A stretch of DNA of 55,687 nucleotides from Solirubrobacter ginsenosidimutans. Lineage in GTDB: Bacteria; Actinomycetota; Thermoleophilia; Solirubrobacterales; Solirubrobacteraceae. The stretch is taken from positions 1 through 55,687 of the forward strand of contig NZ_JAPDOD010000057.1 in assembly GCF_027587205.1 (NCBI RefSeq), in the 5' to 3' direction. The translations under genes and the position numbers were made by a program. The notes under the pieces were generated by a model that was not told the DNA's origin, made no database searches, and saw only the letters and a list, made by a program, of their open reading frames with translations. This document shows, in pieces, positions 3,483-40,792 of this stretch (position 1 is the first letter of the stretch; each line of letters opens with the position of its first letter).

Positions 3483-3636
3483 TTCATTGCCGACCAGCGA
3501 CGCGCCCCCTTGACGGGCGTCGCCGTGAGGATCGTGTCGATCCCCACGCGCGAGCGAATCACCCCGAACGGATGATCTCCGCTCCAGCAGCGCGACGCGG
3601 GCCTGATCTTCAGCGTGAACAGTGTCTGCGCCGCGT

Positions 3637-13200: not shown

Positions 13201-13665
13201 TCAGCAGACGAGCGCGGCTTCGGTGGCGCTGCGCGACTCGATGGCCTCGAGGCTGTGCTCGAATGCCTTGCGGAGCTTGCTCTTGCCGATGCTGCCGAGG
13301 ACGAGGCCGAGCAGCTTGCCCTTGAGGTTCTTGCCCTCGCGGACGACGACGGCGTGCACGACCGTCGTTCCCTCCGGCAGCGTCAGGAGCGTGTAGGTGT
13401 GGCCCGATCGCCCGCCCCAGACGTTGGAATCGGTGGTCGTCATGACGATGCGGTGGGGATCGGACCAGTCGTAGCGCAGCCGCTCCCAGACGCCGCCGGA
13501 CCCTTCGGTGACGTCGGCCCAATCGGGCCCGCGGTCGTGGACCTGGAGATATTCATCGGCGCTGTTGGCGAAGATCTGCGAGCGGCCCGGTCCGAAGTCG
13601 GTGAGCCCGGCGATCAGCTGCTCGGGAGTCGCGGTGGTCTTCTTGGAGAAGTGCAGGGTGGCCAT
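13201..13665 (-). CDS. SRPBCC (START/polyketide-cyclase-like) family protein
   Basis: 154 aa from the ATG at 13665, which has AAGGAGC at 13671-13677 on the minus strand. The reading frame extends upstream, but only as antisense of the regulator gene. The sequence has the helix-grip pattern: MATLHFSKKTTATPEQLIAG, then VTEGSGGVWERLRYDW, VMTTTDSNVWGGRSGHTYTL and a C-terminal amphipathic helix (SKLRKAFEHSLEAIESRS). Members bind hydrophobic ligands; the ligand here is unknown. It is 160 bp behind the LuxR regulator (13826-16501) but has its own conserved palindromic element exactly 60 bp upstream of the start, so it is probably a regulated target. Confidence 0.78.
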   Translation of the reverse strand: MATLHFSKKTTATPEQLIAGLTDFGPGRSQIFANSADEYLQVHDRGPDWADVTEGSGGVWERLRYDWSDPHRIVMTTTDSNVWGGRSGHTYTLLTLPEGTTVVHAVVVREGKNLKGKLLGLVLGSIGKSKLRKAFEHSLEAIESRSATEAALVC

Positions 13666-13725
13666 GGTGTGCTCCTTGTCTGGAAGGTCTTTCTGCTGCT
13701 TCCACGATCGCGCTTCCGTGCCCCC

Positions 13726-13751
13726 GTCGCACCCGTGCGGGACACTGGTCT
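13726..13751 (-). promoter_or_regulatory. Conserved palindromic element upstream of the SRPBCC gene (copy A)
   Basis: A 26-bp sequence identical to 26692-26717 and very similar to 19418-19445. Read on the minus strand it begins AGACCAGTG and contains the perfect dyad CGCAC-GG-GTGCG. It ends 60 bp before the ATG at 13665, the same distance as copy C before its gene. It is probably a binding site for a LuxR-type dimer. Confidence 0.7.
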
Positions 13752-13825
13752 GCGACACCGGGGCAGGTAGGCCTCGACGATGCAGTCGAGCAGCATCCGC
13801 CTCTCGATGCTCGGCGCCCGCGCCG

Positions 13826-16501
13826 CTAGCCCAGGGCGCGGCGCAGCTCTTTGCGCGACGCGATCTCGAGCTTGGTGAAGACGTTCTTGAGATGCCACTC
13901 GACGGTGCGGGAGCTGATGAAGAGCTCGGCGCCGATCTCAGGGTTCGTGTGGCCGGCGAGGGCGAGACGCGCGATGTGCTCCTCGTGCGCAGTGAGGTCG
14001 CCGCGCGTGTCGTCGCGGCGCTTGCGGGCGGTCTCGCCCGTCGCCACCAGTTCGTGGTGCGCGCGCTCGGCGAAGCCGTCGGCGCCGACCGCCGCGAACA
14101 GGTCGTGCGCGGTCCGCAGCGGCTCGCGCGCATCGGAGCGGCGGCGGCTGCGGCGCAGCCACTCGCCGTGCAACAGGTGAGAGCGCGCGAGCTCCGTCCG
14201 CAGCGGCGTGCGTTCGAGGTGCTCGACCGAGGCGCGATAGTCGGCTTCGTCGTCGGTCAGCAGGGCGCGTACCCGCGCGGCTATGCCCCGCTGCCAGTCG
14301 CTGTCGACGTCGCGGGTCGAGACCCAGTCGAGGGCGGCTTCGAGCACCGGTTGATCCCCCGTGCGCGACGCCGCCTCGGCCAGCTCACCCACGACGAACA
14401 TGCCGAGCGCGACGTGGTCGCGGTGCTCGAAGGCCTGCCGTGCCGCCTCGCGGGCCGCGTCGTAGCGGCCGATGCCGTTGTAGAGCACCGCCTTCGCGTA
14501 GGTCGCGACGTCGACCATCCGGCCCAGCCCGCGCGCGCTCGCGCCCGCCACCATGCGCTCGATCAGCTCGCCTGCCCGCGCCTCGTACCCGCGCCAGGCC
14601 GCGAGCAGCAGCTCGTTGTAGCCGACCGCCGTGCTGTCCGTCGCGACGGCGAGCGCCCGCTCCTCGGAGATCAGCACCTCGGCCTCGGCCAGCTCGCCGC
14701 GTGCCAGCGTGCAGCGGGCGAGGAAGTTGAGCGCGAACTGCAGTTGCACGAGCGCGCCGGCGTCGCGGGCGACACGTACCTGCCGCGAGGCGAGCTCATG
14801 CCAGGCGTCGATGTCCCAGAGGTCCAGCGCGATCAACCCGGCCGCGCGGAACCCCGTCAGCCACAGCCAGTGGCCGAGCTCTCGATCCGGAGTGGGCAAG
14901 GCGAGCACGGTCTCCAGCGCGGGGCGCATCTCCGGCGCGGTTCCCTCACGGAGCCGGGTGGCGAGCGCGTCGAGGACGACGTCGACCGCGGTCGGCGCGG
15001 CGGGCGCCGGCGGGGCGGCGCGGGCGGCCTCGAGGATGGTGCCGTCGTCGGCGGACCAGATCGCGGCGCCGAGCGCCTCGAGCTGCGTCATGCGGGCGAG
15101 CTGCGGGTCGAGCGGCTCCAGGCGCCTGGCCGCGTCGCCGAGCAGCCGGGCGGCGTCGCCCGCGCGGCGGTCGTCGAACGCTATCCGTCCCCGGAGATGC
15201 TCCGCCTCCGCTGCCTGCAAGGCCGAGAGCGGCCCGGCCGCGCTCAGCAGCTGCTCTGCCTCGTCCAGCGCTCCCGCGTCGCGCTTGGCGTGCGCCGCCG
15301 CCAACAGGCGGCGGGTGCGTTCGACGGGGTCCGGCGTGAGCTCCGCCGCGCGTGCGAGAAAGCCGGCGGCGGCCGCGACGCCGCCGCGGGCCTGCGCGTC
15401 GGCGGCCGCGTGCTCGAGCTCCGCGGCCACCGCCTCGTCCGGCCCCGATGACGCCTGGGCGTGGTGCCACGCGCGCCGATCCGGCGCCTCGGTGACCTCA
15501 GCCAGTGCCGCGTGCAGCGCGCAGCGTTCGTCGGCCGACGCCGAGCGGTAGGCCGCGGAGTGCAGCAGCGGATGCCGGAAGCGGATCTGCGCGCCGACCT
15601 CGACCAGGTCAGGATCGAAGTCCGCGGTGATCCCGAGCCGGTCGGCCGCGCGCCGCACCAGCGAGACGTCGGCCTCCGGGTCCGCGGCCGCGAGCTGCAG
15701 CAGCGTGCGGCTCTCGGCGGAGAGCGCCTCGATGCGCCGGCGGTAGCCGTCCTCGATGTCGAGCGGAGCGGGTCTGGCGAAGCCGCCGTCCGCGGTCATC
15801 CAGCGCGGCAGCTCGAGCAGCGCGAGCGGGTTGCCTTGGGCCTCGGCGACGATCCGCTCCCGCACGCCCTCGTCGATCGGGCCTGGGACGACGGTCTCGA
15901 GCAACGCGCGCGCGTCCGCCTCGGCGAGCCCGCTCACCGCCAGCTCCGGCAGGCCGCCCAGGAGCTGCTCCTGTCGCACCGCGAACACGAGCCCGAGCGG
16001 CTCGGCCAGGGCGCGTCCGGCGACGAACTCGAGCACGCGGGCGGAAGCGTCGTCGAGCCATTGGAAGTCGTCGATCACACACAGGAAGGGTTGCGCGTCG
16101 GCGGTCAGCAGGCCGAGCGTCGCGAGCCCCACCAGGAGACGGTCGGGTCGCTCGCCGGCGGCGAGCCCGAGCGCGACCTCCAGCGCAAGCCGCTGCGGCT
16201 GGGGGAGGATCGGGAGCCGGCTCAGCAGCGGCGCGCACAGCAGGTGCAGGCCCGCGTAGGCGAACTCGAGCTCGGACTCGACCCCTGCGATCGAGGCGAC
16301 CCGGAACCCGGACGCCCGCTCGGCGGCGTAGCCGAGCAGGGCCGTCTTGCCGACCCCGGGTTCGCCACGCAGCACGAGCACGCCGCTGCGGCCCTCACGC
16401 ACCTGCGCGAGCAGCTGGTCCAGCCGCTCACACTCGGCGGCGCGTCCCCGCAGCATGGCCGCGGAGCCTAATGGCCGACCAGTGCGCTGGCCAGGGATCA
16501 C
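13826..16501 (-). CDS. Large AAA-ATPase/LuxR (LAL-type) transcriptional regulator
   Basis: 891 aa from the GTG at 16501; an ATG at 16456 (MLRGRAAECERL) is an alternative and may be better supported, since homology to the paralogues starts there. Order: Walker A at 46-53 (GEPGVGKT), a conserved VESELEFAYAGLHLL segment, Walker B at about 141-150 (CVIDDFQWLD), the sensor RIVAEAQGNPLALLELP, a long TPR-like helical region (QARGGVAAAAGFLARAAELT) and a C-terminal LuxR HTH with recognition helix SSRTVEWHLKNVF. Such proteins are ATP-dependent activators. It is one of three paralogues here; the RTVEWH helix is shared by all three. It lies 40 bp downstream of the regulator at 16542-19298 on the same strand. 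Confidence 0.9.
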   Translation of the reverse strand: MIPGQRTGRPLGSAAMLRGRAAECERLDQLLAQVREGRSGVLVLRGEPGVGKTALLGYAAERASGFRVASIAGVESELEFAYAGLHLLCAPLLSRLPILPQPQRLALEVALGLAAGERPDRLLVGLATLGLLTADAQPFLCVIDDFQWLDDASARVLEFVAGRALAEPLGLVFAVRQEQLLGGLPELAVSGLAEADARALLETVVPGPIDEGVRERIVAEAQGNPLALLELPRWMTADGGFARPAPLDIEDGYRRRIEALSAESRTLLQLAAADPEADVSLVRRAADRLGITADFDPDLVEVGAQIRFRHPLLHSAAYRSASADERCALHAALAEVTEAPDRRAWHHAQASSGPDEAVAAELEHAAADAQARGGVAAAAGFLARAAELTPDPVERTRRLLAAAHAKRDAGALDEAEQLLSAAGPLSALQAAEAEHLRGRIAFDDRRAGDAARLLGDAARRLEPLDPQLARMTQLEALGAAIWSADDGTILEAARAAPPAPAAPTAVDVVLDALATRLREGTAPEMRPALETVLALPTPDRELGHWLWLTGFRAAGLIALDLWDIDAWHELASRQVRVARDAGALVQLQFALNFLARCTLARGELAEAEVLISEERALAVATDSTAVGYNELLLAAWRGYEARAGELIERMVAGASARGLGRMVDVATYAKAVLYNGIGRYDAAREAARQAFEHRDHVALGMFVVGELAEAASRTGDQPVLEAALDWVSTRDVDSDWQRGIAARVRALLTDDEADYRASVEHLERTPLRTELARSHLLHGEWLRRSRRRSDAREPLRTAHDLFAAVGADGFAERAHHELVATGETARKRRDDTRGDLTAHEEHIARLALAGHTNPEIGAELFISSRTVEWHLKNVFTKLEIASRKELRRALG

Positions 16502-16541
16502 ACCTCTGCGACCCGCGGCAGATCATGGCCGGCGCCTGGCT

Positions 16542-19298
16542 CTAAGGCACCGGCATCAGCTCGGCCTCGCGCTCAGGCAGTGCATCCGCGAGCTCGCGGC
16601 GCGAGGTGATGCCAAGCTTGCCGAGGATCTTGCGCATGTGCCACTCGACCGTGCGGTGGCTGAGGAAGAGCTGGGCGCCGATCTCCGCGTTGGTCAGCCC
16701 GTCGCGGGCCATGCGGGCGATCTGCGCCTCCTGCGGGGTGAGCTCGTCGCGCGTGTCGTCGCTGCGCTTGCGGACGGTCTCGCCGGTGGCGGCCAGCTCG
16801 CGGCGCGCGCGCTCGGCGAACGCGGCCGCGCCCATCTCGTCCAGCGCGGCGTAGGCAGACTTCAGCTGGACGCGCGCATCAACGCGACGCCCTTCGCGGC
16901 GCAGCCACTCGCCATAGACGAGCTCGGCGCGCGCGTGGTGGACGATGACCTTCGAGCGGCTGAGCTGCTCGATCGCCTCACGGTAGAGCGCGTCGGCGTC
17001 GTCGCCACCGGCCAGCAACGCACGCGAGCGGGCTTCGATCCCGCGCGCCCATGGGGTGGTGCTCAGCGACGAGCGCTCCGCCAAGCGCGTCAAGGCCAGA
17101 TCGGCCGCGGCGGTGTCGCCGTTACGCACCGCGGCCTCGATCAGCTCGGGTAGCACCCACACGTTGAAGCCGAGCCCGTCATGGTCGTACGCGCGCTGAG
17201 CGGCTTGGTGCGCTTCGGCGTATTCGCCGTATCCGAGGTGCAGCGTGGCGACCGCCCACTCGCCGACCTCGACCGCGAACCCCTCGCCGCGCGCGGTCCC
17301 GCCGGCGATCGCGGCCTCACGCAGCGCGAAGGTGCGTTCGCGGTCGCCGCGCCAGGCGGCGAGCAGCACGGCGAAGTCGGCGATCGGGACGCTCGAAGTC
17401 GCCGTCGTGATCGTGTCGGCCTCGTGCACGAGTTGCTCGCAGACGCCGAACGCCCCGGCGAACAGCTGATGGGCCGCAGAGTAGTTCAGCGCGAATGGGA
17501 GGACGCCGAGCGCGCCGCGGTCGCGAGCGGTCGCGGCCAGCCCGGTGGCGATCGCCGCGCAAGCGTCGTCGTTCCACAAATCCATCGCGAGCTGACAGGC
17601 GAGCCAGCACCAGGCGATGTTCTCGTGCCGGAAGCCCTCCTCCTGGAACACGTCGAGCGCGTACGCGACAGCTGGCAGCGCAGGCTCGTATCCGCGGGCG
17701 AGCCTGGTGGTGAGGCCGCGGAGCAACAGGTCGATCGAGCGCACAGAGCCCGAGGCGGCGGCCGCGTCGGCGGCTTCGAGGACGCCTTCGGCGCGCGCGA
17801 AGCGCCCGCTGCGCACGGCCGCCCACAGCGCTTCGAGGTGGGTCTCGCGCGCGAGCTCAGGGTCCAGCGGCTCGAGTCGGCGAGCGGCGGCGCTGAGCAT
17901 CGCCGGCGTGTCGCTCCCGCGCGTACGGGTGAACGCGATCCGCGCCCGCAGACGATCCACCCGCGCATGCTGCAGCTCGTCGAGCGGGCAGCTTGAGGCG
18001 ACGGTGAGCAACGCCTCGGCGGCGTCGGTGGCGCCCGCGTCGAACTTCGCGTGCGCGGCCGCCAGCGCGCGCGTCCCGCGTTGCCCGGGGTCGGGCGTGA
18101 GCTCGGCCGCGCGCTCCAGGAAAGCCGCCGCGGCGGTCATGCCTCCGCGTGACCGTGCGCGCGACGCCGACTGCTCGAGTTCGACGGCGATCTCTTCGTC
18201 GGGCACGGGGGTCGCGTGCGCGCGATGCCACGCGCGGCGGTCGGGATCGACGCTCGGATCGGTGGCATCGGCGAGCGCGGCGTGAACGCGGCGACGCACG
18301 GCGGCGGGCGCGGCGCGGTAGGCCGCCGAGCGCACGAGCGGATGCCGGAAGCGCACGCGCGCTTCGAGCGAGATCAACCCCTCGGTCTCGGCGGCGCTGA
18401 TGGCGTCGGGCGGGATCCCGAGCCTCTCGAGCGCACCGAACATGAGGGTCACGTCCCCGACAGGTTCGGCCGCGGCGACGAAGAGCAACCGCTGCGTCGC
18501 CTCGGGCAGCGCCTCAATGCGACGCAAGAAGCTCGCTTCCACGCGGCCCGCGACGGCCTGCTGCGGGAGGCCGAACCCGCCGGCGAGCTCGGCCGGCGTC
18601 AACCCGCGCGGCAGCTCCAGCAGCGCCAGTGGGTTGCCTCGGGTCTCGGCCACGATCCGGTCGCGCACCTGCTGGTCGAGACCGCCGGGGAGGGCCGAGT
18701 CGAGCAGCTCGCGTGCGTCGTGATCGTTGAGCCCCGCGAGCGTGAGATCCGCCAACCCGCCGAGCACTCGCTCCTCGTTCGGCTCGCGGACCGCGAAGAC
18801 GATCGCCAGCCGCTCCGCCGTCAAGCGTCGCGCGACGAACGACAGCATCTGCACCGACGTCTTGTCGAGCCATTGCACGTCATCGACGAGGCACAGCAGT
18901 GGCTGCTCGTCGGCGGCGTCGGTGAGCACACCCAGCGCCGCCAGCGCCACCAGGAAGGGATCGGGGACGGGGCCTTCGAGCAGCCCGAACGCGACCCGCA
19001 GCGCGTCGCGCTGCGGCGGCGCGAGTGCGGCGGCGCGGTCGAGCAGCGAAGCGCCGAACAGCTGCTGCAGGCCGGCCAGCGGCAGCTCGAGCTCGGATTC
19101 GACGCCGGCCGCCCGCGCCACCGCGAACCCGGTGGCGATCGCGGCCGCGTAGTCGAGCAGGACGGACTTGCCGACGCCGGGCTCGCCGCGCAGGACGAGC
19201 ACCGATCCGTGGCCGCCGCGCGCCGCTTCGAGCACCCGCTCGAGGGCGACGCACTCGGCGTCGCGGCCCAACGGCGCACTCACTTTGGCGACGTCCAT
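16542..19298 (-). CDS. Large AAA-ATPase/LuxR (LAL-type) transcriptional regulator
   Basis: 918 aa, ATG at 19298. Walker A is at 38-45 (GEPGVGKS), Walker B at about 135-145 (LLCLVDDVQWLD), then RIVAETRGNPLALLELPRGL, RFRHPLVRSAAYRAAP, the repeat signature RGGMTAAAAFLERAAELTPD, a long TPR-like region and a terminal HTH (LTPQEAQIARMARDG; SHRTVEWHMRKILGKL). It is clearly paralogous to the genes at 13826 and 22247. It is divergent from the SDR/DyP operon, and the 202-bp spacer holds the best copy of the shared palindrome (19424-19445, ten-bp arms). That site is positioned as an upstream element of the SDR gene, but could also act on this gene. Confidence 0.92.
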   Translation of the reverse strand: MDVAKVSAPLGRDAECVALERVLEAARGGHGSVLVLRGEPGVGKSVLLDYAAAIATGFAVARAAGVESELELPLAGLQQLFGASLLDRAAALAPPQRDALRVAFGLLEGPVPDPFLVALAALGVLTDAADEQPLLCLVDDVQWLDKTSVQMLSFVARRLTAERLAIVFAVREPNEERVLGGLADLTLAGLNDHDARELLDSALPGGLDQQVRDRIVAETRGNPLALLELPRGLTPAELAGGFGLPQQAVAGRVEASFLRRIEALPEATQRLLFVAAAEPVGDVTLMFGALERLGIPPDAISAAETEGLISLEARVRFRHPLVRSAAYRAAPAAVRRRVHAALADATDPSVDPDRRAWHRAHATPVPDEEIAVELEQSASRARSRGGMTAAAAFLERAAELTPDPGQRGTRALAAAHAKFDAGATDAAEALLTVASSCPLDELQHARVDRLRARIAFTRTRGSDTPAMLSAAARRLEPLDPELARETHLEALWAAVRSGRFARAEGVLEAADAAAASGSVRSIDLLLRGLTTRLARGYEPALPAVAYALDVFQEEGFRHENIAWCWLACQLAMDLWNDDACAAIATGLAATARDRGALGVLPFALNYSAAHQLFAGAFGVCEQLVHEADTITTATSSVPIADFAVLLAAWRGDRERTFALREAAIAGGTARGEGFAVEVGEWAVATLHLGYGEYAEAHQAAQRAYDHDGLGFNVWVLPELIEAAVRNGDTAAADLALTRLAERSSLSTTPWARGIEARSRALLAGGDDADALYREAIEQLSRSKVIVHHARAELVYGEWLRREGRRVDARVQLKSAYAALDEMGAAAFAERARRELAATGETVRKRSDDTRDELTPQEAQIARMARDGLTNAEIGAQLFLSHRTVEWHMRKILGKLGITSRRELADALPEREAELMPVP

Positions 19299-19417
19299 TC
19301 CAGGTCCCGTCGCGACGTTACCGCAGGCGGCGCATCAGCATCACGATCGAGGCGAGACGACCCAGGTCCACCACGGCCAGATCGTGAGGGGACGACACCG
19401 GGATGCCGCCCGTGCCC

Positions 19418-19445
19418 AGACCGGTGCTCGCACGGGTGCGAGCAC
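19418..19445 (+). promoter_or_regulatory. Conserved palindromic element upstream of the SDR/DyP operon (copy B)
   Basis: AGACCGGTG is followed by an overlapping perfect palindrome at 19424-19445: ten-bp arms GTGCTCGCAC and GTGCGAGCAC around a GG centre. The AGACC...GTGCGA portion (19418-19441) matches copies A and C with one base missing, and ends 59 bp before the ATG at 19501. This is the most symmetrical copy and the likely high-affinity site. Confidence 0.7.
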
Positions 19446-19500
19446 TGACGGCGGAGACGACCTTGTCGAGACCGAGCAGCTTCGACGAAAGGGAACCACC

Positions 19501-20265
19501 ATGAACGTCAAGGACAAGGTCGCCGTCGTGACGGGCGGCGCCAGCGGCATCGGCCTCGCGCTGTCGACCCGCTTCGCCCAGGAGGGTGCGCACGTCGTGC
19601 TCTCGGACCTCCGCCAGGACGCCACCGAGCGCGCGGCCGCCGCGATCGGCGCCTACCCCGTGGCCGCCGACGTCGGCCGCGAGGAGGACATCAAGCACCT
19701 CGTCGAGGCCACGATCGAGCGCTTCGGGCGCGTCGACCTGTTCGTCTCCAACGCCGGCATCGCCATCGACGGTGGGCTCGAGACGACCACCGAGCAGTGG
19801 CAGAAGATCATCGGCGTCAACCTCATGTCCGAGATCTACGCGGCCAAGTACGCGATCCCGCACATGCTCGAACAGGGCAGCGGCTACCTGCTCAACGTCG
19901 CCTCGGCGGCAGGGCTGCTGGTGATCTACGACACGGTCTCCTACACCGTCACCAAGCACGCGGCGATCGGCTTCACCGAGTGGCTGGCCTCCATGTACGA
20001 GGACAGCGGCATCGGCGTCAGCGTGCTCGTCCCGGCGGCCGTGCGCACGCCGATCCTGGCCGGCAAGTTCGACACCCCGGAGGGCCGGGACGCGATCACC
20101 ACCGACAAGCTCGCCGACATCGTCATGGACGGGCTCGCGGAGGAGCGCTTCCTGATCAACACGCACCCGTGGGTGCTCGACAAGTTCGCGGTCAAGGGCC
20201 GCGACTACGAGCAGTACATCGCGATGATGCGCGCCGGCCATGCCGCCGAGCTCGCACGGACGTAA
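19501..20265 (+). CDS. Short-chain dehydrogenase/reductase (classical SDR)
   Basis: 254 aa from the ATG at 19501, preceded by GAAAGGGA. Cofactor motif VTGGASGIGLAL (residues about 10-21), SDLRQD acidic switch suggesting NAD preference, FVSNAGIA (the NNAG-type motif), the Ser in LLNVASAAG, and YTVTKHAA for the YxxxK catalytic pair. All catalytic residues are present. A C-terminal stretch (FLINTHPWVLDKFAVKGRDY) resembles ketone/alcohol SDRs of actinobacteria. The substrate is unknown. It is first in a three-gene operon with an unknown protein (20286) and a DyP peroxidase (20900), and lies 59 bp downstream of palindrome copy B. Confidence 0.88.
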   Translation: MNVKDKVAVVTGGASGIGLALSTRFAQEGAHVVLSDLRQDATERAAAAIGAYPVAADVGREEDIKHLVEATIERFGRVDLFVSNAGIAIDGGLETTTEQWQKIIGVNLMSEIYAAKYAIPHMLEQGSGYLLNVASAAGLLVIYDTVSYTVTKHAAIGFTEWLASMYEDSGIGVSVLVPAAVRTPILAGKFDTPEGRDAITTDKLADIVMDGLAEERFLINTHPWVLDKFAVKGRDYEQYIAMMRAGHAAELART

Positions 20266-20285
20266 CCCGAAAGGAGAAGGAAACA

Positions 20286-20894
20286 ATGACCACCATCGAC
20301 CATCAATCGGCGGTCGAAGCGAGGATCGCGCAGCTGCGGGAGCTGTTCGCCGACGCGCCGGAAGTGGGCAAGGTCGCGCTGGAGAATGTGATCGAGCAGT
20401 TGCGGTCCGACGCCGCGACCACGCCGCCACCGCCGATCGAGAGCGCCGGCCGGGTCGGCAGCCGGCTGGGCAAGGTGTCCGAGCTGACGATCCTCGTCCC
20501 GCTCGCGCCGGGCGGCGGCCCTCGGCTGCGGACGTTCCTGCAGCTGTTCGGCGGCAACCTCGCCGGTGCCGACGATGTCGGCAGCGTGCACGACATGCGC
20601 TTCGTGTTCCTCGACGACGACACGCGGATGCTGTTCGCCACCACGTACGACGGGGACTGGGACGCGTACATCGACGACTTCGCGACCAAGATCCCGGACT
20701 TCCTGGACATCATCGATTCGGCCTGGGAGGGTTGGCCGGGGATCCGCAGCCCCGAGGCCAAGGACTACCTGGCCGCCCATCAGGTCACCGCCGAGGGCTG
20801 GTACGTGGCCAACGATCTGACGGTGGCCGAGACGCGCCGCCTGAAGAAGATCGGCCGGGCCGTCGACGAGTTCCTGGACAAGATCGGGGACTGA
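20286..20894 (+). CDS. Protein of unknown function with a DyP-like ferredoxin-fold segment
   Basis: 202 aa, ATG at 20286 with GGAGAAGG just upstream; 20 bp behind the SDR gene. The N-terminal 60 residues are helical and then Pro-rich (TPPPPIESAG). From residue about 70 it reads SELTILVPLAPGGGPRLRTF, then VHDMRFVFLDDDTRMLFATT followed by YDGDWDAYIDDFATKIPDFL and SAWEGWPG. This resembles the alpha/beta ferredoxin-like segment found beside or in front of some DyP-type peroxidases (tiHFARWv...LlFaSNYDGSwesYL). No heme ligand is identifiable. The next gene is a DyP peroxidase, 5 bp downstream, so a partner or accessory role is likely but not demonstrated. Confidence 0.7.
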   Translation: MTTIDHQSAVEARIAQLRELFADAPEVGKVALENVIEQLRSDAATTPPPPIESAGRVGSRLGKVSELTILVPLAPGGGPRLRTFLQLFGGNLAGADDVGSVHDMRFVFLDDDTRMLFATTYDGDWDAYIDDFATKIPDFLDIIDSAWEGWPGIRSPEAKDYLAAHQVTAEGWYVANDLTVAETRRLKKIGRAVDEFLDKIGD

Positions 20895-20899
20895 GCGTC

Positions 20900-22231
20900 A
20901 TGGCACGCAACGACCGGCTCGAGCTCGAGGACATCCAGGCCACGGTGCTGCGCTACCGGCCTGAGCCGTACTACGGCACGCACGTCATGCTGCGCGTGGA
21001 CGATGCCCGGGCCGGTCGTGAGCTCCTGCGCGGGCTGGCGCCTCACGTCGACTCCGCCGCCGAGTGGCGGCAGCCCGGCGAACCGTGGATCGCGGTCGCG
21101 ATCACCTACGCGGGGTTGGTGGCGCTGGGCCTGCCGGCGGAGTCGCTGAACAGCTTCCCGGAGGCGTTCCGGGTCGGCATGGCGGGACGTTCCGGGCAGC
21201 TGCTCGATGTCGGCGACAACGACCCGGCGCACTGGCATCACCCGTTCGGGTCCGGCGAGATCCACCTCGGTGTGAGTGTGTTCAGCGGCTCCGAGGAGGC
21301 GTGGCACCGGACGCTGGAGACGGCCCGGCAGCACTATGCGGGCCGGCCAGGTCTGGCTGTCGTCGCGACGCAGGACTTCGGCGCCCAGCCGGGCGATCTC
21401 AACCCGCTCGGCTACCGCGATTCGATCGGCCAGCCCGCGATCGAGGGCAGCGGCGTCGCGCCGCTGCCCGGTCAGGGCCGGCCGATCAAGGCGGGCGAGT
21501 TCATCCTCGGCTACCCGGGGGAGAGCGGCGGGCCGCTGCCCGCGCCGGCACCCGGCGTGTTGGGCCGCAACGGCACGTACGTCGGCCTACGCAAGTACGA
21601 GTCGCGGGTCGCCACCTTCAACCGCTTCCTGCGCGAGCATGCGCAGACCGATCGGGAGCGTGAGCTGCTCGCGGCGAAGCTGGTGGGTCGCTGGCGCAGC
21701 GGGGCGCCGCTGACGCTCGCGCCCGAGGTTGACGACCCGGAGCTCGGCGCGGATCCGTCACGCAACGACGACTTCACCTACGCCGGCGATCCCCACGGCC
21801 ACCAGGTGCCACTCGGCTCGCACATGCGACGCATGAACCCGCGCGACACCAAGATGGCGTTGCTCACCGACGTCAACCTCCACCGCATCATCCGCCGCAG
21901 CACCACCTACGGGAAGCCGTACGACCCGGAAGCCCTCGGCGACGCGGAGGACGGCGGTCGCGGCCTGTACTTCATCTTCCTCAGCGCCAAGGCGATGGAC
22001 ACGCTCGAGTTCCTTCAGCGCGAGTGGATCAACAACGGCAACTTCATGAGCCTCGGCGCCGAACGTGACCCGAACGTCGGCCTGCAGGAGGCCGGCGCGA
22101 CGTTCACGATCCCGCAGACGCCGGTCCGGCGACGCATCCACGAGATCGAGACCTTCAACGCGCTGCGCGGCGGCGAGTACTTCTTCCTGCCCTCACTGAG
22201 CGCACTGCGCTGGATCGCCAACCTGCCGTAG
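20900..22231 (+). CDS. Dye-decolorizing (DyP-type) heme peroxidase
   Basis: 443 aa, ATG at 20900. Two ferredoxin-like halves are recognisable. The distal motif is GYRDS at 171-175: the catalytic Asp174 is kept, but the last Gly of the family GxxDG is Ser. The proximal heme ligand is His308 in GSHMRRMNPRD. The C-terminus has GLYFIFLSAKAMDTLEFLQR, NNGNFMSLGAERDPNVG and GGEYFFLPS, typical of the larger DyP classes. There is no Tat or Sec signal, so it acts in the cytoplasm or is exported by another route. It oxidises bulky substrates with H2O2; the physiological substrate is unknown. Last gene of the SDR operon; the next LuxR gene starts 15 bp later on the same strand. Confidence 0.88.
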   Translation: MARNDRLELEDIQATVLRYRPEPYYGTHVMLRVDDARAGRELLRGLAPHVDSAAEWRQPGEPWIAVAITYAGLVALGLPAESLNSFPEAFRVGMAGRSGQLLDVGDNDPAHWHHPFGSGEIHLGVSVFSGSEEAWHRTLETARQHYAGRPGLAVVATQDFGAQPGDLNPLGYRDSIGQPAIEGSGVAPLPGQGRPIKAGEFILGYPGESGGPLPAPAPGVLGRNGTYVGLRKYESRVATFNRFLREHAQTDRERELLAAKLVGRWRSGAPLTLAPEVDDPELGADPSRNDDFTYAGDPHGHQVPLGSHMRRMNPRDTKMALLTDVNLHRIIRRSTTYGKPYDPEALGDAEDGGRGLYFIFLSAKAMDTLEFLQREWINNGNFMSLGAERDPNVGLQEAGATFTIPQTPVRRRIHEIETFNALRGGEYFFLPSLSALRWIANLP

Positions 22232-22246
22232 CGATAGGGTCGGCCG

Positions 22247-25000
22247 GTGGACCGGCCGGCGGTGACGCTCCTGGGACGGCAGGCGGAATGTGACTTCCTG
22301 AAAGCGGCGCTGGCCGAGGCGCGTGAAGGGCGAAGCCGCGTCGTCGTCCTGCGCGGCGAGGCCGGCGCGGGTAAGAGCGCGCTGCTGGACTTCGTCGTCG
22401 GGCACGCCGCGGGCTGGCGCATCTGCACGGCAGTCGGCATCGAGTCCGAGATGGAGCTCGCCTACAGCGGCCTGCACCAGCTCTGTGCGCCGATGCTCGA
22501 CCAGCTCGACCAGCTGCCTGGCCCGCAACAGAATGCGCTGCGCACGGTCTTCGGCCAGCAGACCGGCCCGCCGCCGGATCGGTTCTTGGTCGCGTTGGCC
22601 ACGCTGACGCTGCTGGCCGAGGTCGCCGAGCGCCGACCACTCCTGTGCGTCATCGACGACGCCCACTGGCTCGATACCGCCTCGGCCCAGATCGTGCTGT
22701 TCGTCGGCCGCCGTCTGCTCGCGGAACCGCTCGCGCTCGTCTGCGCGGCGCGCAGCCCGTTCGATCCCGAGGTCCTCGTCGGGCTGCCGGAGCTGCGCGT
22801 GAGCGCACTCGGCGTGGTCGACGCCCGGGCGCTGCTGGTGGGCAACCTGAACGTCCCGTTCGACGCCGCGGTGTGTGAGCAGATCGTCACCGAGAGCCAC
22901 GGCAACCCGCTCGCCCTGCTGGAGCTGCCGCGGACCTGGAACATTGCCGACATCGCGGGCGGTTTCGGGCTCCCGGCTCGGCATGCCGTCGCGGGCAAGA
23001 TCGAACAGAGCTACGCCAAGCGCCTTGAGTCACTCCCGGCCGACACGCAACTGCTCGTCCTGGCCGCCGCTGCTGAGCCGCTCGGCGATCCGCTGTTGCT
23101 GCAGCGCGCCGCGCAGTACCTCGGCGTCGACATGACCGCGTCCGGCGCGGCCGTGGATGCGGGCCTGCTCAGCGTCAGCGCGCGCGTGGCCTTCGCCCAC
23201 CCGCTGGTGCGCTCCGCGGCCTACGGGTCGGCGACGGACGAAGAGCGCCGACGCATGCACTTCGCGCTGGCCGAAGCGACGGACCCCGAGCGCGATGCGG
23301 ACCGGCGCGCCTGGCATCGGGCGCGTGCGACCGTGGGCGCCGACGAGGACGTCGCGGCCGAGCTCGAGCGCTCTGCCGAACGTGCGCAGGCCCGCGGGGG
23401 CGTCGCCGCGGCGGCGGCTTTCCTCGAGCGCGCAGCGGCGCTCTCACCGGATCCGGGCCGGCGCGCGCGGCGCTCCTTGGCGGCCGCCGAGGCCAAGCAG
23501 TTGGCCGGAGCGCCTGAGGCCGCTTCGGCGCTTCTCGTGGCCGCTGCCGCGGGCCCGCTCGATCCGCTCGACAGCGCACTCGCAAAGCGCCTGCAGGGAG
23601 AGATCGCCATGGGCCTCCGGCAGGCGCCGACGGCGTTCCCATTTCTCCTCGACGCGGCACGCCTGCTGGAATCGGTGAACCCGGATCTCGCACGCGACAC
23701 GTACCTGACGGTGTTGCAAGCCGCGAGCGTCGCCGGTCGATTCGCCCCGCACATGACGCGCTCGGGTGCCGAGGCTGCCCGCGACGCGCCGCCTCCGGAC
23801 GGCACACCGCGCGCCGTCGACCTGCTCGTGGCCGGCCTGGCGGTCCGTTTCACCGACGGTCATGCCGCCAGTACGCGACTGCTCAAGCGCGCGGTAGACG
23901 CCCTGCGAGAGGAAGGCCCGCAAAGCGTCCGCTGGCCGGTGTTCGCGCGTCGCATCGCCTTCGATCTCTTCGACCTCGAGGCGTGCCGTGCGCTCGCGAC
24001 GCCGGGCGTCGAGCTGGCGCGCGGGCGAGGCGCTCTGGGCCTGCTCCCGCACGCGCTCGAGCTCATGTCACTCCCGCGGATCTTCGCAGGCGATCTCGGC
24101 GGCGCGGAGACCCTCCTCCAGGAGGCCGACACGATCGCCGAGGCTACCCACACGGAACCGATCGGGTTCGCGCGCTTCACCCTCGCGGGCTTCCAGGGCG
24201 ACGAAGAGGCGCTGGCGGCGCTGAGCGCCGCCGTCCTGCCGAGGGCGACCACCCGCGGCGACAGCATGACCGTGACGTTCGGCGAACACGCCCGCGCGCT
24301 CGCGTTCAACGGCCTCGGCCGCTACGACGCGGCGCTTGGAGAGGCGCAAAGCGCCGTCGCGCAGGATGAGCCGGCCACCTCGACTTGGTCGTTGCCCGAG
24401 CTGATCGAGGCGGCCGCCCGGTGCGGCGCCGACGCGGCCGCGGCGGACGCGTTCGAACGCCTCAGCGAACGGACGCAGGCCGCCGGGACCGAATGGGCGC
24501 TGGGCATCGAGGCGCGCTCGCGTGCGCTGCTCGTACCGGAGCCCGAGGAGCTTTACCGCGAGGCCATCGACCGCCTGGGGCGTGACGGCATCGCCCCGGA
24601 ACAGGCCCGCGCGCACCTGCTGTACGGCGAATGGCTGCGCCGCGACGGCCGGCGCGTCGACGCCCGCGAGCAGCTCGAGGTGGCGCACGGCACATTGAGC
24701 ACGATCGGCATGCGGGCGTTCGCAGAGCGCGCACGCCGGGAGTTGGAGGCGACGGGCGCGACCGTGCGCAAACGAACGCCGGACACCCTGGACGATCTCA
24801 CCGCCCAGGAGACCCAGATCGCCGAGCTCGCGCGCGACGGCTACTCCAATCGCGAGATCGCGGGCCAGCTGTTCCTCAGCGCGCGCACCGTCGAGTGGCA
24901 TCTGCGCAAGGTCTTCGCGAAGCTGGGGATCAAGTCGCGCCGGGAGCTCGTGTCGGCGCTGGAGCGATCGCCCGCCCTGGCCGTCAGAGGCGGGGTGTGA
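22247..25000 (+). CDS. Large AAA-ATPase/LuxR (LAL-type) transcriptional regulator
   Basis: 917 aa, GTG at 22247, only 15 bp behind the DyP gene, so probably read through from the SDR operon. Walker A at 37-44 (GEAGAGKS), Walker B LLCVIDDAHWLD, sensor IVTESHGNPLALLELPRTW, RVAFAHPLVRSAAYGSA, repeat signature RGGVAAAAAFLERAAALSPD, then the HTH (LTAQETQIAELARDG; SARTVEWHLRKVFAKL). Its HTH closely resembles those of the two regulators at 13826 and 16542. Because it may be cotranscribed with a putative target operon, it could form a positive feedback loop. The LOG gene follows one base after its stop. Confidence 0.92.
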   Translation: MDRPAVTLLGRQAECDFLKAALAEAREGRSRVVVLRGEAGAGKSALLDFVVGHAAGWRICTAVGIESEMELAYSGLHQLCAPMLDQLDQLPGPQQNALRTVFGQQTGPPPDRFLVALATLTLLAEVAERRPLLCVIDDAHWLDTASAQIVLFVGRRLLAEPLALVCAARSPFDPEVLVGLPELRVSALGVVDARALLVGNLNVPFDAAVCEQIVTESHGNPLALLELPRTWNIADIAGGFGLPARHAVAGKIEQSYAKRLESLPADTQLLVLAAAAEPLGDPLLLQRAAQYLGVDMTASGAAVDAGLLSVSARVAFAHPLVRSAAYGSATDEERRRMHFALAEATDPERDADRRAWHRARATVGADEDVAAELERSAERAQARGGVAAAAAFLERAAALSPDPGRRARRSLAAAEAKQLAGAPEAASALLVAAAAGPLDPLDSALAKRLQGEIAMGLRQAPTAFPFLLDAARLLESVNPDLARDTYLTVLQAASVAGRFAPHMTRSGAEAARDAPPPDGTPRAVDLLVAGLAVRFTDGHAASTRLLKRAVDALREEGPQSVRWPVFARRIAFDLFDLEACRALATPGVELARGRGALGLLPHALELMSLPRIFAGDLGGAETLLQEADTIAEATHTEPIGFARFTLAGFQGDEEALAALSAAVLPRATTRGDSMTVTFGEHARALAFNGLGRYDAALGEAQSAVAQDEPATSTWSLPELIEAAARCGADAAAADAFERLSERTQAAGTEWALGIEARSRALLVPEPEELYREAIDRLGRDGIAPEQARAHLLYGEWLRRDGRRVDAREQLEVAHGTLSTIGMRAFAERARRELEATGATVRKRTPDTLDDLTAQETQIAELARDGYSNREIAGQLFLSARTVEWHLRKVFAKLGIKSRRELVSALERSPALAVRGGV

Positions 25001-25001
25001 G

Positions 25002-25955
25002 ATGGCAGACGCAGATCGTCCGTACGTCGTCCGGCCGGATCGGTTGTACACGCGCGACTTCCTGATGCAGGGGTGGCGGCCCGGAGAGGATCATTCCGTG
25101 ACGCTCGACGGGCGCATCTATGACTACGTCAAGGCGCACGGTGGTCGTGCGCCCGACATGGACGAGGGGTTGGCGCAGCGCGTCCACGATCATTTCATCG
25201 ATGTCGCACTGGCCACGTTCCTGATGCGAACCGGCCGGCCGGTGGTCGGGATCATGGGTGGGTCGACCGCGACGGCCGCCGACGGCAACTACCGGCGTGT
25301 CGTCCGCTTGACGGCCGCGTTGAACCGGCGCGGATACCTGGTCGTCTCCGGCGGTGGACTCGGGATCATGGAGGCCGCCAATCTCGGCGCCTACCTCGCT
25401 GATGCCTCCGACACCGAGCGCGACGACGCCGTGGACGCACTCGGGGCCGCTCCCCCATGGGCGCGCGACGCTGCCGGATATATGGGCGTCGCGGACGGGA
25501 TCCGGGAGCGCTTCGCGCCGGGTGGGACGAACCTGGCGATCCCGACGTGGGTGACGGCCGGCGAACCGATCAGCCAGTTCGCGTCACACATCGCGAAGTA
25601 CTTCTCGAACAGCATCCGTGAGGACGGACTGCTCGCGGTGGCCACGGCGGGCATCGTGTTCGCGCCGGGCGGCGCGGGCACGATGCAGGAGATCTTCCAG
25701 GATGCCGCCCAGAACGCCTATCGCGTGTTCGGTCGCAGCCCGATGGCGTTTCTCGACCGCCAGCACTACTGCGAGGAGACCGCTCTCTACCCGGCGCTGA
25801 CGCGCCAAGCCACGCGACTGGGGTTCGCCGACCTGTTGAGCATCGCCGACGAGCCCGGACAGATTCTTGATCGGTTCCCGATAGTGACGACGCGGCCGGA
25901 TCTGGAGGACATGCCGCCGGAGATGCTCGTCCGGCGCATCCGCAACCGGGGTTGA
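25002..25955 (+). CDS. LOG-family protein (nucleotide 5'-monophosphate phosphoribohydrolase-like)
   Basis: 317 aa, ATG at 25002, one base after the stop of the LuxR gene, hence almost certainly cotranscribed. The Rossmann-like fold shows VVGIMGGSTATAADGNYRRV, SGGGLGIMEAANLGAYLADA and the signature PGGAGTMQEIFQDAAQN. In the LOG family PGGxGTxxE and the upstream Arg bind and hydrolyse the ribose-5-phosphate bond of nucleoside monophosphates, releasing a free base. It is longer than canonical 180-200 aa LOG proteins, with about 80 extra N-terminal residues and an insertion (ASDTERDDAVDALGAAPPWA). It converges with a phosphoribosyltransferase one base away, so the pair could release and re-attach a nucleobase. 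Confidence 0.8.
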   Translation: MADADRPYVVRPDRLYTRDFLMQGWRPGEDHSVTLDGRIYDYVKAHGGRAPDMDEGLAQRVHDHFIDVALATFLMRTGRPVVGIMGGSTATAADGNYRRVVRLTAALNRRGYLVVSGGGLGIMEAANLGAYLADASDTERDDAVDALGAAPPWARDAAGYMGVADGIRERFAPGGTNLAIPTWVTAGEPISQFASHIAKYFSNSIREDGLLAVATAGIVFAPGGAGTMQEIFQDAAQNAYRVFGRSPMAFLDRQHYCEETALYPALTRQATRLGFADLLSIADEPGQILDRFPIVTTRPDLEDMPPEMLVRRIRNRG

Positions 25956-25956
25956 G

Positions 25957-26631
25957 TCACGCGGCCGCGGCGAGGAGATCCCAGCGCGGGTCGTCGCTGC
26001 TCCAGCGATTGACGATCGCGTCGACGCTGAGCGTGTGGACGGACTGATCGAGGATGCCGTTGGCCGCGGCCAGGTCGAGGACCTGCAGATAGGTGCTGAC
26101 GGAGTCCGTGGGCAGCGCGGCGGCGACGCTGGTGACGCTGTCGGCCACGTCGCGCATGTCGACGAGGACGAACACGCCGGCGACCTCGGCGCCCTCGCCG
26201 GTCAACGCGGCGGCGAAGCGCTCCACCGCTGTGCCGCTGGCCACGGCGTCGTCCACCAGCAACACGCGCCGACCCGCCACCTCGGCCCCGCGGACCCGCG
26301 GCTCGTCGATCTCGTGACCGCGATACCCCGGCTTGCGGACGAACGCGAACGGCAGCCCCGCCGCCAGCGAGATCGCCGCGGCCAGCGGCACGCCGGCGGT
26401 CTCGGCGCCGACAATCACCTCGACGCCCAGCTCGCGAGCGAAGCGCGCGCCCCGGGTCCCGAGATCGCGCAGCAGGACAGGATCGGCGAAGGCGCTCTCC
26501 AGCGACAGCGGATGGATCGGCGTGCGGCCGCCGTCCCAGCGGCTGGCGCCGGCGCGCACCAGCCCGGGGGCCATGGCCAACCGAGCGGCGAGGGCACGAT
26601 CAACATCTTCGGTGGGGGCGTACGAGGTCAC
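25957..26631 (-). CDS. Phosphoribosyltransferase (orotate/purine PRTase-like)
   Basis: 224 aa from a GTG at 26631 with AGGAG about 10 bp upstream. The PRPP-binding loop is VLLVDDAVASGTAVERFAAA (hydrophobic run, two Asp, then SGTA), preceded by IVGAETAGVPLAAAISLAAG and FAFVRKPGYRG, as in PyrE-type enzymes. It would attach a base to PRPP; which base is unclear, since the N-terminus (PIHPLSLESAFADPVLLRDL) is not that of standard PyrE. It converges with the LOG gene (one-base gap) and carries palindrome copy C exactly 60 bp upstream of its start, placing it in the inferred LuxR regulon. Confidence 0.8.
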   Translation of the reverse strand: MTSYAPTEDVDRALAARLAMAPGLVRAGASRWDGGRTPIHPLSLESAFADPVLLRDLGTRGARFARELGVEVIVGAETAGVPLAAAISLAAGLPFAFVRKPGYRGHEIDEPRVRGAEVAGRRVLLVDDAVASGTAVERFAAALTGEGAEVAGVFVLVDMRDVADSVTSVAAALPTDSVSTYLQVLDLAAANGILDQSVHTLSVDAIVNRWSSDDPRWDLLAAAA

Positions 26632-26691
26632 GATTCTTGGCTCCTGCTGCGCTCGTTGGTGATGTCACCAGCGTCCCGCGCAGCACCCTGG

Positions 26692-26717
26692 GTCGCACCC
26701 GTGCGGGACACTGGTCT
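26692..26717 (-). promoter_or_regulatory. Conserved palindromic element upstream of the phosphoribosyltransferase gene (copy C)
   Basis: Identical over 26 bp to 13726-13751, in the same orientation relative to its gene and at the same 60-bp distance from the start codon (26631). Core dyad CGCAC-GG-GTGCG. Flanking sequence between element and start codon is not conserved between the copies, which argues for selection on the element rather than recent duplication. Confidence 0.7.
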
Positions 26718-30969: not shown

Positions 30970-33900
30970 TCAGGCGGTGTGTGGACATGTGTCGCGGTAC
31001 GCCTGGCCGGGCAGGTATTGAGCCCACTCGGTGTGGGTGAGATTGCGCCGGATGACGCCGCAGATGCGATGCTGGAGCGCGTCGCGATCTCGGCTCCAGA
31101 GGATCGGGTCCCACAGCCGGACGGTCCCGTCGTCACCGGCGCTGGCAAGCTGGTCGCCGCGCGGGCTGAAGGCGAGGGTGTTGACCCAGCCGGTGGCGTC
31201 GTTCAGCGGTTGGCCGAGCGCGTGATGAGCGGACACGTCCCAGAGCCGGACGGTGTGGTCGGCGCCGGCGGACGCGAGGGTGTTGCCGTCCGGGCTGAAG
31301 CTGAGCGCGCTGATGACGTCGGCGTGGCCGGTGAGCGGCGGGCCGAGCGGTCGAGAGGTGTTGACGTTCCATAGCCAGATCGAGCCGTCGCCGCCGGCGC
31401 TGGCGAGGGTGCGACCATCGGGGCTGAAGGCCAGCGCGTCCACGAACCGGGTGGCTCCGCGCAGCGGTGCGAGCGGGCGGCGGCGGGGGAGGTCCCACAG
31501 CCGCACCGTGCCGTCCTGCGCGCCGGCGGCCAGGATCTGGCCGTCTTTGCCGAAGGCGACGCTTCTGATGGCACCCGCGCCGGGGTTGAGCGGTGGTCCG
31601 GTGGGTTGGCCGCTGCGGGGGTCCCAGAGGCGCACGGTGCCGTCGTCGCCGCCGCTCGCCAGCGTGCTTCCGTCAGGATCGATCGCCACGGCGTACACGT
31701 TGCCGCTTTGGCCGTTGAGCAGCCGGCCGAGAGGCCGCCGGCCTTGGAGGCTCCAGAGGCTCAGCAGGCCGTCCGCGCCGGCGATCGCCAGCCTGTCGCC
31801 GTCAGGATCGGCGGCCAGGCTGAGGATCTCGCCCAGATGGCGCACCGGTGGGCCGAGCGTTCGCGCTCGACGCGTGTCCCATAGTCGCAGCGTGCCATCC
31901 AGGTCGGCGGAGGCGAGCGTGCCGGCGGGCGTGAACGCGATGGCGCGGATCCAGCTGCGATCGCCGGGCAACTGTCGGTCGAGCGGATGCGCGGCCGCCG
32001 TGTTCCAGAGTTGGACCGCGCCAGTCTCGTCGGCGGTGGCCAGGAGGTCGTCGCGCGGGCTGAAGGCCAGGGCCAGCACGCCGGCGACGTGACCGACCCC
32101 CTCGAGGTTCGCGTCCCGATTGCTGTCGGTCACCAGCACGCCGCGCGGGCGATGCGTGGCCACGCTCCACAACTGCACCGTGCCGTCCTGGCCGCCGCTG
32201 GCCAGCGTGCGCCCGTCGGGGCTGAAGGCCACGACACTATCGATGCCGGTGCGGCCCTCAAGTGCCCGGAGCGGCCGGCCGGACCGCACATCCAACAGTT
32301 GCGGATCATCGTCGATATGGGCCACCGTCCGGCCGTCCGGGCTGAATGACACACTCTCGCCGCCCGCGCCCAACTCGGTGACGTGCCACAGCGGGCGGCG
32401 GGCGGCCACATCCCACATCGACAGTGTGCCGTCACCGGAGGTCGCCAGCAGTGCGCCGTCCGGGCTGAACTGGAGCTCCGTGATCGACGTCGTGCCGATC
32501 TGCAGTGGGCGGCCGAGCGCCCGGCCGCTGGCGACGTCCCAGAAGCGCACCGTGGCGTGCTGCCCGTAGGCGTTGCTGAGCCGTGCGCCCCCCTGGCCGC
32601 TCGCCAGGGTCGTGCCGTCGGGGCTGAAGGCGACGGTGGTCGCGGTCGTCTTGTGCTGGACGAGCGGGCGCCCCCGCGGCCTGCGGGCGGCGAGGTCCCA
32701 GAGCCGGACCGTGTCGTCGTCGCTTGCGCTGGCAAGCAGCCGTCCGTCGGGGCTGATCGCCACGTCGTTGACCGGTCGCGCGTGGCCCGCGAGCCAGCCG
32801 ATGTGGCGTCGCGAGGCGACGTCCCACAGCCAGATCCTGCCGTCGTCGGCGCCGCTGACGAGCGTACGACCGTCGGGGCTGATCGCGATGCTCTCGACGG
32901 CGGCGCCGTGCTCGAGCGGTCGTCCGACTCGGCGGTAGCCAGTGAGTGTGGGCAGCATGGACAGCACGGCATTGCGGGCCTCGCTGGTCGGCTCGCGGCG
33001 GTAGGCCTCAAGCCCCAGCAATCCCGCCAGTGGGGGGTCGTCGCCGAGATGCGCCACCGCGCTCGTGGCCAGGGCGCGTGAGGCGGCGGCGCGTTGCTCG
33101 AACCGCGCACGCTGCACGCCGCGCACGGCCACGATCGTGGCGATGCCGGCGATGGTGGCCAGGAGCGCGAGCGCGGAAGCCATCAGCCGGCGACGTCGCA
33201 CGTGATCGCGCCGTTCGGCGTCGTGGCTCACATGCAGGAAGGCGCGTTCGGCGCGATTGAGTTCGGGATCGTGGTGGGCGTGCCATTCCACGGCGGCTGC
33301 GAGGCGGGCCCCGCGGTAGAGGTCGCCGGGGTCGCGGCCGGCCGCGTCCCACTCGCGCGCGGCCTCGGCCAGCCGGCGGTGCAACCGCCGTCCGTCGGCG
33401 TCCTCCTCCAGCCAGCCGCGCAGCCGCGGCCATTTTCGCAGCAGTGCCTCGTGTGCGAGCTCGACCGACCCGGCGCTGACTGTCAGCAGCCGCTCGTCGA
33501 TGAGGATGGCGACAACCTGGGCCACGTCCTCGTCGAGCTCGGCGAGCGGAATCCGCCGCCGCTCGATCGCCCCGTCGCTGCCCTCGGTCGTGAGCCGCAG
33601 CAGCACGCCGCGGGCCGCGACCTGCTGCGCGGTGTCGAGGCGGGCGAACGCCTGCTCGGCATGGCGAGCGACCGCGCCGCGCACGCCGCCGCTGGCCTCG
33701 TAGCTCGACAGGCGCAGCTGGCGCCCGTCGCGCCGCTGCCAGAGCTCGAGGAGCGCGCTCGACAACATCGGCAGCGCGCCCGGCTCGTGCTCCACCTCGC
33801 TGAGCAGCGCCTCAGTGAGCTCGGGCTCGACCTCCAGGCCGGCCCGCTTGGCCGGGCGCTCCACCGCCTGGCGCAGCTCATCGCGGCGCATCGCGCTCAC

Positions 33901-40680: not shown

Positions 40681-40792
40681 GGTTGGGAGCCTGCGCCACG
40701 CCGGTCTAAACGCGGTCGCACGGCCGTTTAGACCACGCGTAGACCGGGCTCGGTAACCGTCACGTTGATTGAGCCCCGAGGAGGTGATTGGG

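Follow-up and report, generated by a model that had tools for sequence, protein, structure and literature searches.

We analyzed a window of 55,687 nucleotides (nt) of Solirubrobacter ginsenosidimutans DNA (contig NZ_JAPDOD010000057.1), in which a short element stands before three genes, encoding an SRPBCC-like protein, a short-chain dehydrogenase (SDR) and a phosphoribosyltransferase, that lie among three LuxR-type regulators of the LAL group. The conserved unit is a whole promoter, consisting of the dyad CCNGKG-N4/5-CMCNGG, YGCGA at the -35 position, a spacer of exactly 17 bp and NANNNT as the -10 element. With a probability that we put at slightly more than three in four, each copy would be an activator-dependent (class II) promoter run by a dimer of an LAL regulator with the helix type RTVEWH, the copies sharing one operator and defining a small regulon.

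Two of the copies in the window, at 13726-13751 and 26692-26717 (both minus strand), are identical over the 26-mer AGACCAGTGTCCCGCACGGGTGCGAC, exactly as had been predicted from the sequence; with up to three mismatches allowed they are the only two matches in the window, and shuffled sequence gave none. The third, AGACCGGTGCTCGCACGGGTGCGAGCAC at 19418-19445 (plus strand), had been called a close variant and is indeed a related copy, but more precisely an indel variant, with substitutions and one base less between the arms; the perfect palindrome with 10-bp arms noted at 19424-19445 is correct. The core proposed in the original prediction, CGCAC-GG-GTGCG, proved to be half a site off. With one mismatch allowed, the bare core CGCACNNGTGCG has 15 matches in the window (GC content 70.7%) against 15.3 expected, and the palindrome is best read as the junction of one half-site with the putative -35 element, the real dyad being ACCNGKG-N4/5-CMCNGGT. 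Counted from the GCGA end, the start codons at 13665, 26631 and 19501 lie 61, 61 and 59 bp away. The distances given before, 60, 60 and 59 bp, hold for the first two as measured from the ends of the intervals; the third is 55 bp on that measure. The distance of about 60 bp is nearly constant because it spans the promoter and a leader of about 30 nt (30-32 nt predicted in the window). The view that the flanks are not conserved was incomplete, as GANNNT follows exactly 17 bp past GCGA in all three copies, and the orthologous promoters of Solirubrobacter soli are alike over the element and downstream of it, less so upstream.

Before the SRPBCC gene, the predicted operator dyad CCAGTG-N5-CACGGG occupies 13732-13748 (minus strand) and is kept in S. 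soli; it is followed by TGCGA at the -35 position (13727-13731) and, after the 17-bp spacer, by the -10 element GATCGT (13704-13709). Before the SDR gene (plus strand), the corresponding parts are CCGGTG-N4-CACGGG at 19421-19436, also a predicted operator, TGCGA at 19437-19441 and, again 17 bp on, GACCTT at 19459-19464. The phosphoribosyltransferase gene (minus strand) has its putative operator CCAGTG-N5-CACGGG at 26698-26714, TGCGA at 26693-26697 and, with the same spacer, GACGCT at 26670-26675. By analogy with leaderless relatives, transcription is predicted to start at 13697, 19471 and 26663, respectively.

A search of related genomes with the core dyad had been suggested. The core dyad alone shows no excess in the window, but the full promoter pattern matches 39 times among 232 Solirubrobacterales genomes, in 17 of which it occurs; its reversed form has 2 matches. 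Among 37 aligned sites, four of which (L153-L156) resemble chance matches, 31 have NANNNT exactly 17 bp past GCGA (GANNNT in 27, CANNNT or AANNNT in 4). Taking the 39 matches and the three window sites together, the first base of the -10 element is G in 36 of 42 sites, which is far from TANNNT. These 42-site counts keep four probable chance matches (L192-L195) that were removed before the weight matrix was built and the arm spacing counted; in the latter, the spacer between the arms is N4 in 19 and N5 in 19 of 38 sites, the right arm being fixed relative to the -10 element by the search pattern. The training set of the weight matrix comprised 27 sites; it excluded the window and the four presumed chance sites and had a single S. 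soli site, which lies apart from the site cluster described below. The matrix ranks the three window copies first to third, with scores of 37.6, 37.5 and 25.3, against 9.6 for the runner-up and a top score of 18.7 on 20 Markov windows.

The position of the start codon provides a criterion that lies outside the search pattern. Across the 42 sites, ATG stands 6 nt past the -10 element in 7 cases and 7 nt past it in 5 (p about 2e-12 under independence); other ATGs fall at 27-47 nt (27), at 0-3 nt (3) or beyond 59 nt (8). An open frame of at least 60 amino acids (aa) begins at 9 of the 12 ATGs at 6-7 nt, and 35 of the 42 sites have a candidate start with such a frame. Genes with an ATG at 6-7 nt would be leaderless, and the transcription start would thereby be fixed. 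If the ATG at 6 nt is taken as the start, YGCGA falls at -34 to -30 and the center of the dyad at -42.5 (N4) or -43 (N5); with an ATG at 7 nt, the center lies one position further upstream. In a sample of 396 genomes of the phylum, the full pattern is at noise level except in S. soli: seven genomes match, S. soli at nine places and six others (including G196, which belongs to the order) at one place each, with 2 for the control.

A scan with AGACCRGTGN{2,4}CGCACGGGTGCG found exact matches in S. soli DSM 22325 and in one metagenome-assembled genome (L002), the latter probably by chance. The S. soli region is syntenic with the window, with identities of 93% for the SRPBCC protein, 97% for the SDR, 90% for a SLOG-type gene, 88% for the phosphoribosyltransferase and 86, 94 and 94% for the three LAL regulators; five further LALs lie in or beside the syntenic block. 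By this synteny, the window very probably comes from a near relative of S. soli within the genus. S. soli has nine full-pattern sites in 9.3 Mb, eight of them within one 38-kb cluster, and at eight of the nine a candidate start codon lies 6-44 nt past the -10 element. In a genome of the same family (G123), two LALs share a locus with an SRPBCC gene (66%) and the phosphoribosyltransferase orthologue (78%), and in both of the latter genes a GTCGACCAGGGG...CGGGCGCGAC element lies upstream of the start, at 57 and 58 nt, respectively. The same genes thus carry an element of this kind, here lacking the CGCAC-GG-GTGCG palindrome. The shared form is ACCNGKG-N5/6-MCNGGYGCGA, which as a dyad reads CCNGKG-N4/5-CMCNGG, the right arm continuing into YGCGA.

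Several details of the S. soli locus may be added. The phosphoribosyltransferase gene and an alpha/beta hydrolase gene are divergent there (L010, about 5499-5586), each with its own element pointing at the gene. The phosphoribosyltransferase start in S. soli is an ATG 6 nt past the -10 element (L010, about 5450-5470) and looks leaderless, whereas the window gene (26631) starts at a GTG that lies 38 nt past the -10 element and has a ribosome-binding site; the mode of starting possibly changed between these close species. At 36021-36043 of the S. soli stretch (L008:16021-16043), the matrix finds an extra site (score 30.4) in which GGTACGA replaces GGYGCGA and an ATG lies 9 nt past the -10 element. 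The strict pattern misses this site, so the regulon is probably larger than counted.

The candidate regulators belong to the group of which MalT is the archetype. The three LALs of the window lie at 13826-16501 (minus strand), 16542-19298 (minus strand) and 22247-25000 (plus strand), all with the helix RTVEWH. Their lengths of 891, 918 and 917 aa are close to the LAL norm of about 900 aa; an N-terminal ATPase domain of the AAA_16 type (68.2, 63.1 and 63.9 bits, cut-off 32.6) and a C-terminal GerE domain (49.5, 57 and 56.5 bits, cut-off 23.5) are their only domain hits, with none for PAS, and the solved relatives of one of them are helix-turn-helix (HTH) domains of the LuxR/NarL type. The proposal that the element belongs to these neighbors is backed by both co-occurrence and proximity. 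RTVEWH was read in 17 of 19 LAL-like HTHs at eight site loci (LAL matches in L193 and L196 stand outside that reading), the two others being S. soli 47424 and a protein of the window whose closest site is about 10 kb away. Elsewhere in S. soli, in whose genome 150 GerE matches were scored, only 1 of 20 sampled LALs has it. As a DNA pattern, RTVEWH occurs in 17 of the 232 genomes and shares 11 of them with the operator, which likewise occurs in 17 (Fisher 6e-11), although the p-values for co-occurrence are too small because the tests ignore the shared ancestry of the genomes. Of the 23 genomes that reach 5 Mb, 7 have operator and RTVEWH together and 16 have neither, with no discordant case; the 209 smaller genomes divide into 4 with both, 6 with the operator only, 6 with RTVEWH only and 193 with neither (p 5e-4). 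RTVEWH is encoded within 5 kb of 16 of the 39 sites, where 0.21 are expected, or of 8 of 30 with S. soli excluded (expected 0.11); RTVEYH is encoded within that distance of none of the 39. The clean split in large genomes and this contrast in proximity are the stronger points for the link.

The most likely mechanism can be outlined as follows. A dimer of an RTVEWH-type LAL would bind the inverted repeat CCNGKG-N4/5-CMCNGG centered at about -42.5/-43, where the bound dyad would abut a poor -35 element (YGCGA), and would recruit RNA polymerase to the NANNNT -10 element (mostly GCGNGANNNT) 17 bp downstream. Several paralogous LALs of a cluster probably share the operator and would switch on a small regulon of enzymes of the detoxification/oxidation type. 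A more tentative extension, which we regard as possible without thinking it probable, is a sensor array with a single output: paralogous LALs that are only about 50% identical to one another along their length (seven with RTVEWH in the S. soli cluster, three in the window) would use one helix type to read the same class II operator, and the tryptophan in RTVEWH would set their specificity apart from that of RTVEYH relatives. If so, different signals would converge on one detoxification regulon.

A number of observations weigh against the main reading, an LAL-activated promoter. The count of 39 against 2 is partly circular, as the -10 rule was derived from many of the same sites, and the K/M position of the two arms showed no covariation. 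Of the 12 leaderless-type ATGs, three (soli 33238, L150, L193) open no 60-aa frame and two (L192, L193) belong to sites judged to be chance matches. SRPBCC homologues (62-64%) in three other genomes of the genus Solirubrobacter, as well as a second SRPBCC copy in S. soli, lie in loci without the element. For 23 of the 39 sites, some of them on short contigs, there is no RTVEWH motif within 5 kb. The pattern is lacking in six of the 17 operator genomes, where the sites look like chance in four (G196, G200, G223, G224) and real in two (G016, G220), and conversely six of the 17 RTVEWH genomes have no operator match. RTVEYH alone is also associated with the operator, with 8 of 23 genomes (Fisher 4e-5), an association that is weak in genomes without RTVEWH (2 of 16, p 0.07). 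Finally, the prevalence of G as the first base of the -10 element makes an unusual sigma factor possible.

This last point leads to the main alternative, in which an alternative sigma factor would use the element in its entirety as its promoter (-35 about CMCGGGYGCGA, -10 GCGNGANNNT) and the LALs would be just neighbors. Besides a -10 element so far from TANNNT, it can draw on the fact that GYGCGA-N13-GCGNGANNNT seldom occurs without the upstream arm: a script assigned the dyad to 18 of 24 matches in 508 kb of DNA taken from around sites, and 5 of the remaining 6 have a full or degenerate dyad by eye. Yet the conserved left arm (about -50 to -45) is a mirror image of the right arm and stands at two spacings from it, which sigma contacts would hardly allow and which suits a flexible dimer better, and the link to RTVEWH is stronger and closer than that to RTVEYH. 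We therefore consider a sigma factor promoter unlikely. A second alternative is a repressor from a different family (e.g. TetR or MarR), encoded elsewhere, that uses the element as its operator, the LALs being mere hitch-hikers. Many sites do stand more than 10 kb from any LAL in the DNA examined, but a position abutting the -35 element on its upstream side suits an activator, and the seven LAL HTHs read at loci with a site in other genomes are all of one helix type, which is seldom found elsewhere in S. soli. The LALs are also the only regulators identified in the conserved block, in which not every neighbor was scanned for other regulator families; such a repressor is to our judgment very improbable. 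A mobile or REP-like repeat devoid of regulatory function, as the identity of two window copies over 26 bp might suggest, is practically negligible given that eight of the nine S. soli sites lie in one cluster and eight of the nine stand before candidate start codons, in agreement with the gene-proximal placement originally described, and given copies in other genera that diverge in sequence but keep the geometry.

Target genes were compared by a Pfam scan of 30 of the 32 target frames outside the window and of the window's three. In the window, the SRPBCC-like protein (13201-13665, minus strand, 154 aa) matches Polyketide_cyc2 at 20.7 bits, under the curated cut-off of 27.4; the SDR (19501-20265, plus strand) matches adh_short at 150.8 bits and the phosphoribosyltransferase (25957-26631, minus strand) Pribosyltran at 49.8 bits. 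A DyP-type peroxidase downstream of the SDR (20900-22231, plus strand; Dyp_perox_C 22.6 bits, cut-off 20) is possibly co-transcribed with it. A 203-aa open frame between the two (20285-20893, plus strand) has no Pfam match and may encode a companion protein. The regulon had been described as a small one (SRPBCC, SDR with companion and DyP, phosphoribosyltransferase); it is not limited to the three genes behind the window copies, and the element recurs in related genomes before VOC, SRPBCC, SDR, hydrolase and other targets. VOC/glyoxalase proteins follow seven sites (S. soli, G123 twice, G046, G013, G049, G073), and further families occur more than once: SDR (window, S. soli, G081, G049), phosphoribosyltransferase (window, S. 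soli, G123), alpha/beta hydrolase (S. soli, G046), SnoaL-like (G052, G220) and Bax1-I (G123, G046). The SRPBCC-type targets (window, S. soli, G123, G046), which either fell short of the cut-off, gave no hit or lay outside the scan, were grouped by similarity; DUF308-type targets (S. soli, G046) are under the cut-off. Lipoxygenase, AhpC/TSA, muconolactone isomerase, MFS and DUF1440 targets were each seen once; no Pfam family was matched by the frames that follow the G079 site and L194, a presumed chance site. The common theme would be oxidation, detoxification and aromatic or lipid chemistry. The lipoxygenase-family gene, in S. soli (L009:11295-13127, minus strand, 54 bits), lies behind a site and has a predicted leaderless start; lipoxygenases are uncommon in bacteria.

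The proposed device is of a known kind. The lux box, according to the accessible portions of two reports, is an inverted repeat for a LuxR-type HTH dimer with a usual center at -42.5 (PMC4471428, PMC3376562). The element described here resembles such class II LuxR promoters in its inverted repeat and in a predicted center near -42.5, the latter derived from the leaderless-type sites. It differs in its half-site CCNGKG, in arms about one helical turn apart, in a GC-rich promoter and often leaderless genes, and in its candidate regulator, an LAL with an ATPase domain instead of an autoinducer-binding LuxR. The nearest sequence relative found is the operator of the PAS-LuxR regulator PimM, given in the available part of its description as CTVGGGAWWTCCCBAG, a 16-bp dyad of the GGG/CCC type in the -35 region of target promoters (PMC9774167). 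Some relatives of the window element read CCAGGGAGTTCCCCGG, but the window dyads (CCAGTG or CCGGTG, N4/5, CACGGG) do not match the PimM consensus; the element has C as second base, a spacer of 4 or 5, commonly GTG/CAC arms and the YGCGA tail, and the window regulators have no PAS hit. The Streptomyces LAL SCO6993 binds short palindromes, as proposed here, and in the sections available is called a repressor for which a consensus could not be predicted; the same source gives MalT boxes as short GGA[TG]GA motifs (PMC9628970). The family described here differs from SCO6993, as far as those sections go, by having a consensus and a fixed promoter geometry, and by reading, no GGA[TG]GA box occurs on either strand of the three window elements. 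Among the open-access publications searched on Solirubrobacter, LuxR promoters and related topics, no title concerned this element. We regard it as a genuine and apparently undescribed family of probable LAL operators and promoters, newly defined though built on a familiar principle. LAL operators have so far been ill defined, although these bacteria are rich in LuxR-type regulators; here sequence alone yields a consensus, a promoter geometry, predicted starts, a list of targets and a residue that may determine specificity, and both the probable controller and the predictions are directly testable in one soil type strain, S. soli DSM 22325.

Other search patterns were less useful. A first pattern, ACCNGTGN{1,5}GCACNNGTGC, matches S. 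soli four times, each time within the cluster (control 1), and shows no excess elsewhere, with matches in 20 of 101 genomes of the family and 2 of 7 of the genus. ACCNGTG-N4/5-CACNGGT occurs at six places in S. soli, four in the cluster and two coding-looking, against two places for the reversed control, and at no more than one place in each of six other members of the genus; it is too narrow because other genera use GGG/CCC arms. The loose GACCNGKGN{6,7}CNGGYGCGA alone matches in 62 of 146 genomes, which is not clearly above its (unsummed) reversed control, the excess appearing when the -10 element is required. From the loose-pattern matches, the better-looking loci were picked by eye and a few controls added.

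The window encodes other proteins with regulator-like or sensor-like domains. A MalT-like protein at 1248-3797 (minus strand; TPR_MalT and GerE) has STIHSH in place of RTVEWH and no operator nearby. Two giant regulators of about 1600 aa, at 30970-35859 (minus strand) and 40769-45565 (plus strand), combine BTAD (SARP-like), an nSTAND1 NTPase and WD40 repeats, and have a relative at about 89857-94473 of the S. soli stretch. A protein at 45694-48045 (plus strand), with TIR, AAA/NB-ARC-like and TPR repeats, resembles a STAND-type sensor and possibly serves in defense.

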